64,000 bases of DNA from the NCBI GenBank assembly GCA_002189035.1, contig NEEC01000011.1, positions 496,001-560,000 on the forward strand. Reading direction: 5' to 3'. The position numbers and the translations under genes were made by a program. This stretch comes from Utricularia gibba. Lineage: Eukaryota; Streptophyta; Magnoliopsida; Lamiales; Lentibulariaceae. Below the pieces are notes generated by a model that was not told the DNA's origin, ran no database searches, and saw only the letters and a list, made by a program, of their open reading frames with translations. Shown piece by piece: positions 55,218 to 56,200 of the stretch (position 1 is the first letter of the stretch; each line of letters opens with the position of its first letter).

Positions 55218-55673
55218 TCAACAGGGGTACATTTGAGCTGAAGCAGGAATGCCTTGAACTGGGCATGGCAGCCGCCATGGCTCATGCAGAGAATCCGGGA
55301 TAGCAGGAATATCTACATCGAGGCCACTCACCTCAGATGCGATTTCTAGAACCGAGTTCAGGCACCTAAGACGATCAGTTAGCTTGGAGAGCTGTGCCCT
55401 TAAGACATTGTTCTCAGATGCGTAGTTGATGTAGAGATCAGCTGAACCATCAATCATGGTCCTCAACTTCTTGTTCTCCTCCTGCATCTGACTTACTTGT
55501 CCAATCAGCTCATCCAATTGTTTTTGCTTCCTCATCCGTGATCTTCGAGCCGACTCACGATTGGACAGCATTCTCTTCCTCTTCCTCTCATCGCCCTCAG
55601 ATGATTCCGGGCTTTTCGGCTGTTGTTTTGAGGCCATGGACATAAAACGGGTCGTTGATTCCACAGGGTGCAC
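55218..55673 (-). CDS. Group S1 bZIP transcription factor, bZIP53-like
   Basis: An intron-free 151-codon frame. The basic region is ERKRKRMLSNRESARRSRMR with the N-x7-R core (NRESARRSR), then a leucine zipper with heptads through QLDELIGQVSQMQEENKKL, LYINYASENNVLRAQL and LTDRLRCLNSVLEI. The C-terminus IPAIPDSLHEPWRLPCPVQ, ending ASAQMYPC, matches the conserved tail of bZIP53 better than that of bZIP11, 2 or 44. S1 bZIPs heterodimerise with group C bZIPs at ACGT elements and drive amino-acid and seed-maturation genes. Starts at M1, M11 or M13 are possible; I keep the first. The leader holds three uORFs including the sucrose-control peptide, so translation is probably repressed by sucrose. Confidence 0.93.
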   Translation of the reverse strand: MHPVESTTRFMSMASKQQPKSPESSEGDERKRKRMLSNRESARRSRMRKQKQLDELIGQVSQMQEENKKLRTMIDGSADLYINYASENNVLRAQLSKLTDRLRCLNSVLEIASEVSGLDVDIPAIPDSLHEPWRLPCPVQGIPASAQMYPC

Positions 55674-55767
55674 AATTACAAAAACAGTGTTGGGCTAATT
55701 TAACAAACACAGGTGGCTTGATAAGGGTATTGAAAATCAGGGGCAAGGAAAATCACGGGCGAGCGCT

Positions 55768-55851
55768 TCAAGAGAAAACATAGAACCAGTACAAAAATAC
55801 CACCGAGAAGGAATGAAGAATTCTAATCCTTCGCATCCGGATCCCCGTCAT
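55768..55851 (-). CDS. Sucrose-control uORF peptide (27 aa)
   Basis: ATG at 55851 to TGA at 55768, ending RILHSFSVVFLYWFYVFS. The SFSVVFLYWFYVFS end is the invariant part of the SC-peptide in all group S1 bZIP leaders. When sucrose is high the nascent peptide stalls ribosomes near the stop and blocks the main frame. The gap to the first main-frame ATG is 94 bases. This is conservation of peptide sequence, so it is a real coding feature despite its size. Confidence 0.95.
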   Translation of the reverse strand: MTGIRMRRIRILHSFSVVFLYWFYVFS

Positions 55852-55900
55852 GTAAACACGCTCATCAAGAACAAGGGGGAAAAAAAGGAAAAGCACCAAT

Positions 55901-55990
55901 TCAATTGTCAAAGTGTCTGAATCTCTGAACAGTGAAATTAACCCACCCAAATCGGGGGTCTTTACAGTTGATTTTATCTGCAAAAGCCAT
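55901..55990 (-). CDS. Second upstream ORF in bZIP leader (29 aa)
   Basis: MAFADKINCKDPRFGWVN... from 55990 to TGA at 55901. Its peptide is not known to be conserved. It would lower scanning to the SC-uORF if the leader is unspliced. Confidence 0.45.
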   Translation of the reverse strand: MAFADKINCKDPRFGWVNFTVQRFRHFDN

Positions 55991-56109: not shown

Positions 56110-56200
56110 CCTAGGAGTGACGTGAAGAACTCGTGTAAAGGAGGTTGGAGGCGTCGAGAGAAGTGGTATTTATAGAGAGAATTCGGTGGGCTTCGACAGC
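56110..56200 (-). promoter_or_regulatory. bZIP core promoter
   Basis: TATAAATA at 56174-56167 on the minus strand, with initiation expected about 30 bases lower (~56140), giving a ~465-nt leader. A CACGTCAC (ACGT core) lies at about 56113-56120, near the leader start. Confidence 0.65.

Follow-up and report, generated by a model that had tools for sequence, protein, structure and literature searches.

The question raised by this locus is whether a very short reading frame ahead of a bZIP gene of Utricularia gibba encodes a sucrose control (SC) peptide, and whether such a peptide would control translation of the gene. The window, the whole stretch of DNA analysed, is 64,000 nucleotides long. 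Within it, a sequence-only reading had described a 27-codon minus-strand frame as an SC-peptide uORF of bZIP group S1, and the coordinates and length that it gave are exact (Table 1). The frame has 27 codons followed by TGA, and the peptide has the C-terminal end SFSVVFLYWFYVFS. We read it, with near certainty, as an SC-uORF (CPuORF homology group 1). Its identity as a group S1 SC-uORF is supported by the S1-type bZIP downstream, by ten uORF-bZIP pairs in the genome, by conservation at the codon level, and by the four residues reported as essential and the position of the stop. The frame is a new SC-uORF member, ordinary and expected for a group S1 bZIP gene and of low surprise, and it leaves the known mechanism unchanged. 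Short frames of this kind are usually missed by annotation pipelines.

The main open reading frame is the next long frame downstream of the SC uORF on the same strand, and it is uninterrupted. It encodes a short protein with a plant bZIP basic region and zipper, which clusters with the SC-bearing S1-type copies in a tree made of this genome's bZIPs. The bZIP53 label is putative and follows from a resemblance at the C-terminus. A second ATG at 55637 (139 aa, MASKQ...) is common to all four bZIP53-like paralogs, and translation may start there instead of at 55643. The uORF stop lies 124 nt from the first ATG and 130 nt from the second, and these distances replace the 94 bases previously given.

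Table 1. Features at the SC uORF locus, in window coordinates. L001 is the window copy; L002-L004 are its bZIP53-like paralogs.
Feature	Position	Strand	Basis or occurrence
Main ORF, bZIP53-like group S1 transcription factor, 141 aa, intact	55218..55643	minus	Pfam bZIP_1 (E=2.8e-12), bZIP tree
14-codon uORF, other frame, start within SC frame	55737..55781	minus	absent in L003
SC-type conserved-peptide uORF, 27 aa, MTGIRMRRIRILHSFSVVFLYWFYVFS, stop TGA	55768..55851	minus	ORF reading, profile HMM, paralogs
Shorter SC uORF version, second in-frame ATG, 22 aa	55768..55836	minus	ATG in L001 and L002, GTG in L003
5-codon uORF (MSVFT), TGA overlapping SC ATG (ATGA)	55848..55865	minus	ORF reading
TATA-like element CTATAAATA	56167..56175	minus	common to L001-L003

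The TATA-like site, through the transcription start that it would set, suggests a leader of ~500 nt that contains the SC uORF. S1 genes have long leaders, and the predicted length agrees with this. Together with the short distance to the bZIP frame, the site would place the SC uORF inside the mRNA leader. An acceptor-like AG is present near 55978, upstream of the uORF, and is similar in L001, L003 and L004, not in L002. The leader may contain an intron upstream of the uORF; such an intron could alter the upstream part of the leader and would not remove the uORF.

The start-codon contexts of both SC uORF ATGs are weak, so that only part of the ribosomes would read the uORF, which fits leaky scanning. 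The 14-codon uORF is not conserved, as one paralog lacks it. L002 and L003 carry uORFs of 10-11 codons that have the same ATGA overlap with the SC frame as the 5-codon uORF, but different starts. The function of the overlap is uncertain, both because a TGA follows automatically from ATGA and because the short uORFs in these two paralogs start elsewhere.

A profile HMM was built from nine paralogous uORF peptides, with the window copy left out. The window uORF scored 60.1 bits against this profile, and the second-best six-frame match inside the window 9.0 bits. In 20 block-shuffled windows the top match reached 16.7 bits, and this difference refutes a chance origin of the uORF match. Pfam contains no model for the SC uORF peptide, and an exact-text literature search with the core peptide gave no match.

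A six-frame search of the genome found 11 SC-like peptide matches, and in ten cases a bZIP reading frame follows a short way downstream. The bZIP-linked copies comprise the four bZIP53-like ones (L001-L004), three mutually similar copies of the bZIP11 type (L005, L006, L008), a closely related pair (L009, L010) and a single copy of a distinct type (L007). Nested ATGs, which give frames of 39-41 and 28-29 codons, are found in L005, L006, L008, L009 and L010. The bZIP53-like copies and L007 have the short form of the SC uORF only. The peptide core had been termed invariant. Its C-terminal sequence is indeed present in the window copy, but invariance in the strict sense does not hold: the ten bZIP-linked copies agree at 10 of the 14 core positions and differ at the other four (V/A, F/L, V/Y, F/I).

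The pattern of substitutions shows what is conserved in the frame. Pairwise comparisons of the four bZIP53-like uORFs (27 codons each), all paralogs of one genome, give pS values of 0.35-0.66 versus pN values of 0.033-0.153, and differences at codon positions 1, 2 and 3 number 18, 9 and 62. When all ten bZIP-linked copies are compared, their 15-codon core has a pS of 0.60 and a pN of 0.075. When the same DNA is read in the two other frames, the pS/pN pattern is reversed. An alignment with other S1 bZIP leaders had been proposed as a check, and with the leaders of this genome's paralogs it bears out the earlier reading: when each third of the uORF is taken separately, L001 and its paralogs agree at 21-25 of 27 bases, versus 1-18 of 27 for the closest leader blocks on either side, where the leader is scarcely alignable. 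Thus the DNA is conserved for its peptide. Among the bZIP53-like paralogs the uORF is under strong purifying selection at the peptide level, and this codon-level conservation strongly implies that the peptide is translated.

In the segment HSFSVVFLYWFYVFS, residues S14, S16, L20 and Y24 of the 27-aa peptide correspond to Ser-29, Ser-31, Leu-35 and Tyr-39 of the AtbZIP11 uORF, with the register set from the spacing of the residues. These four are listed as essential in a paper that cites the original work (PMC4960570). The TGA directly after ...YVFS is at the angiosperm stop position, which nine of the ten bZIP-linked copies use; the same paper calls the position of uORF termination invariable in angiosperms (PMC4960570).

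The closest known systems are those of Arabidopsis, where the SC-uORF is described as common to AtbZIP1, 2, 11, 44 and 53, and SIRT is reported for AtbZIP11 and four other S genes (PMC3310857). Stalling at the stop codon of AtbZIP11 uORF2 is attributed to Yamashita et al. 2017 (cited in PMC11062462). The window copy resembles the Arabidopsis uORF2 in its location upstream of an S1-type bZIP, in a core with the four residues reported as essential, in a stop codon that follows this core immediately and in a long leader, which is here predicted. It differs in an N-terminus that is shorter and of different sequence, and it lacks the 39-41-codon extended start present in the bZIP11-type copies of the same genome. 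The tobacco gene tbz17 likewise has an SC-type uORF in a multi-uORF leader upstream of an S-group bZIP. According to PMC3310857, SIRT was shown by measurement in tbz17, whereas sucrose repression of the window gene is a prediction. The S1 5'uORFs of the gymnosperms Picea abies and Pinus taeda are also of the SIRT type. Their peptides are described as lacking the two Ser and ending at a different codon (PMC4960570), whereas the window copy keeps the angiosperm form.

By analogy with these systems, the uORF very probably represses the bZIP53-like protein in a sucrose-dependent way; for this copy, stalling and its dependence on sucrose are extrapolated from the Arabidopsis and tobacco work. Scanning ribosomes would translate the 27-codon SC frame. 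At high sucrose, the nascent C-terminal peptide (SFSVVFLYWFYVFS) in the exit tunnel would arrest the ribosome on the stop codon or close to it, and the stalled ribosome would keep those behind it from reaching the bZIP start, which lies about 124-130 nt further downstream. At low sucrose, ribosomes would bypass the uORF or clear it, allowing synthesis of the transcription factor. For workers on this plant, the protein level of this bZIP would not be readable from its mRNA. Altering or bypassing the same uORF is reported to raise sugar content in strawberry, tomato and tobacco (PMC7470447, PMC3310857; tomato via PMC11062462).

Perhaps the uORF is translated and represses through its peptide, but does so constitutively or in answer to a cue other than sucrose. 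Its N-terminal half (RMRRIRILH) is unlike that of the genome's bZIP11-type copies (for example, SSLRRGANLVQ), and in another CPuORF group divergent N-termini have been suggested to set the response (PMC9305500). However, the window uORF has a complete SC core and stop, and gymnosperm uORFs with just two of the four key residues are reported to be still sucrose-responsive in Arabidopsis cells (PMC4960570). We regard a constitutive or differently cued repressor as improbable.

A second alternative is that the SC frame is a chance ORF or a decayed, functionless remnant. A decayed SC peptide does exist in this genome. The orphan SC-like peptide QSFNVVFLYWFYVNS (L011, L037:4516 onward; G000:C414:1962548) has neither an in-frame ATG nor the usual stop, and is likely an SC relic. 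Its pairing with a nearby bZIP was rejected, as no credible bZIP trace was found within about 4.5 kb, nor any in the surrounding 9.5 kb. At the window locus, however, start and stop are intact, as is the main ORF, and the peptide is under strong purifying selection among paralogs, which makes chance or decay a very remote prospect. Least credible of all, and close to negligible, is that the frame is a coding exon of another gene or part of an N-terminally extended bZIP isoform: no support for this was found, every one of the ten bZIP-linked copies has a stop in this frame ahead of the bZIP start, and the sequence between uORF and bZIP ORF is poorly conserved.

A sucrose-dependent repressor remains the preferred reading for the window copy. 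For two S1-like bZIPs elsewhere in the genome, L018/L038 (G000:C413:2368353) and L035/L040 (G000:C4:3754681), a search of about 2.3 and 3.5 kb of upstream DNA, respectively, found no SC peptide. L038 and L040 cluster with the SC-bearing copies in the bZIP tree. Both genes may truly have lost sucrose control; alternatively, the SC peptide may lie in a leader exon further upstream.

The main bZIP ORFs of L005, L006 and L007 (G000:C304, C451 and C413) appear to carry frameshifts in or beyond the zipper region, and their SC uORFs are intact. The frameshifts are probably assembly indels, and possibly these are decayed genes. Assembly errors are therefore possible, including for the stop of L004 (G000:C317:646337-646414, minus strand). 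In this copy GAG GCC AGT TGA stands in place of the usual stop and adds Glu-Ala-Ser (...YVFSEAS*), and termination occurs three codons later than in the other nine. The extension may be a natural variant or an assembly error, and one missing base could explain it. It is conceivable, though doubtful, that the bZIP53-like copies form a natural set of SC-uORF variants, with the short form without the extended start in three copies and L004 running three residues past the usual stop. If true and not an assembly error, the L004 extension would offer a natural experiment on whether stalling needs a stop directly after the core.
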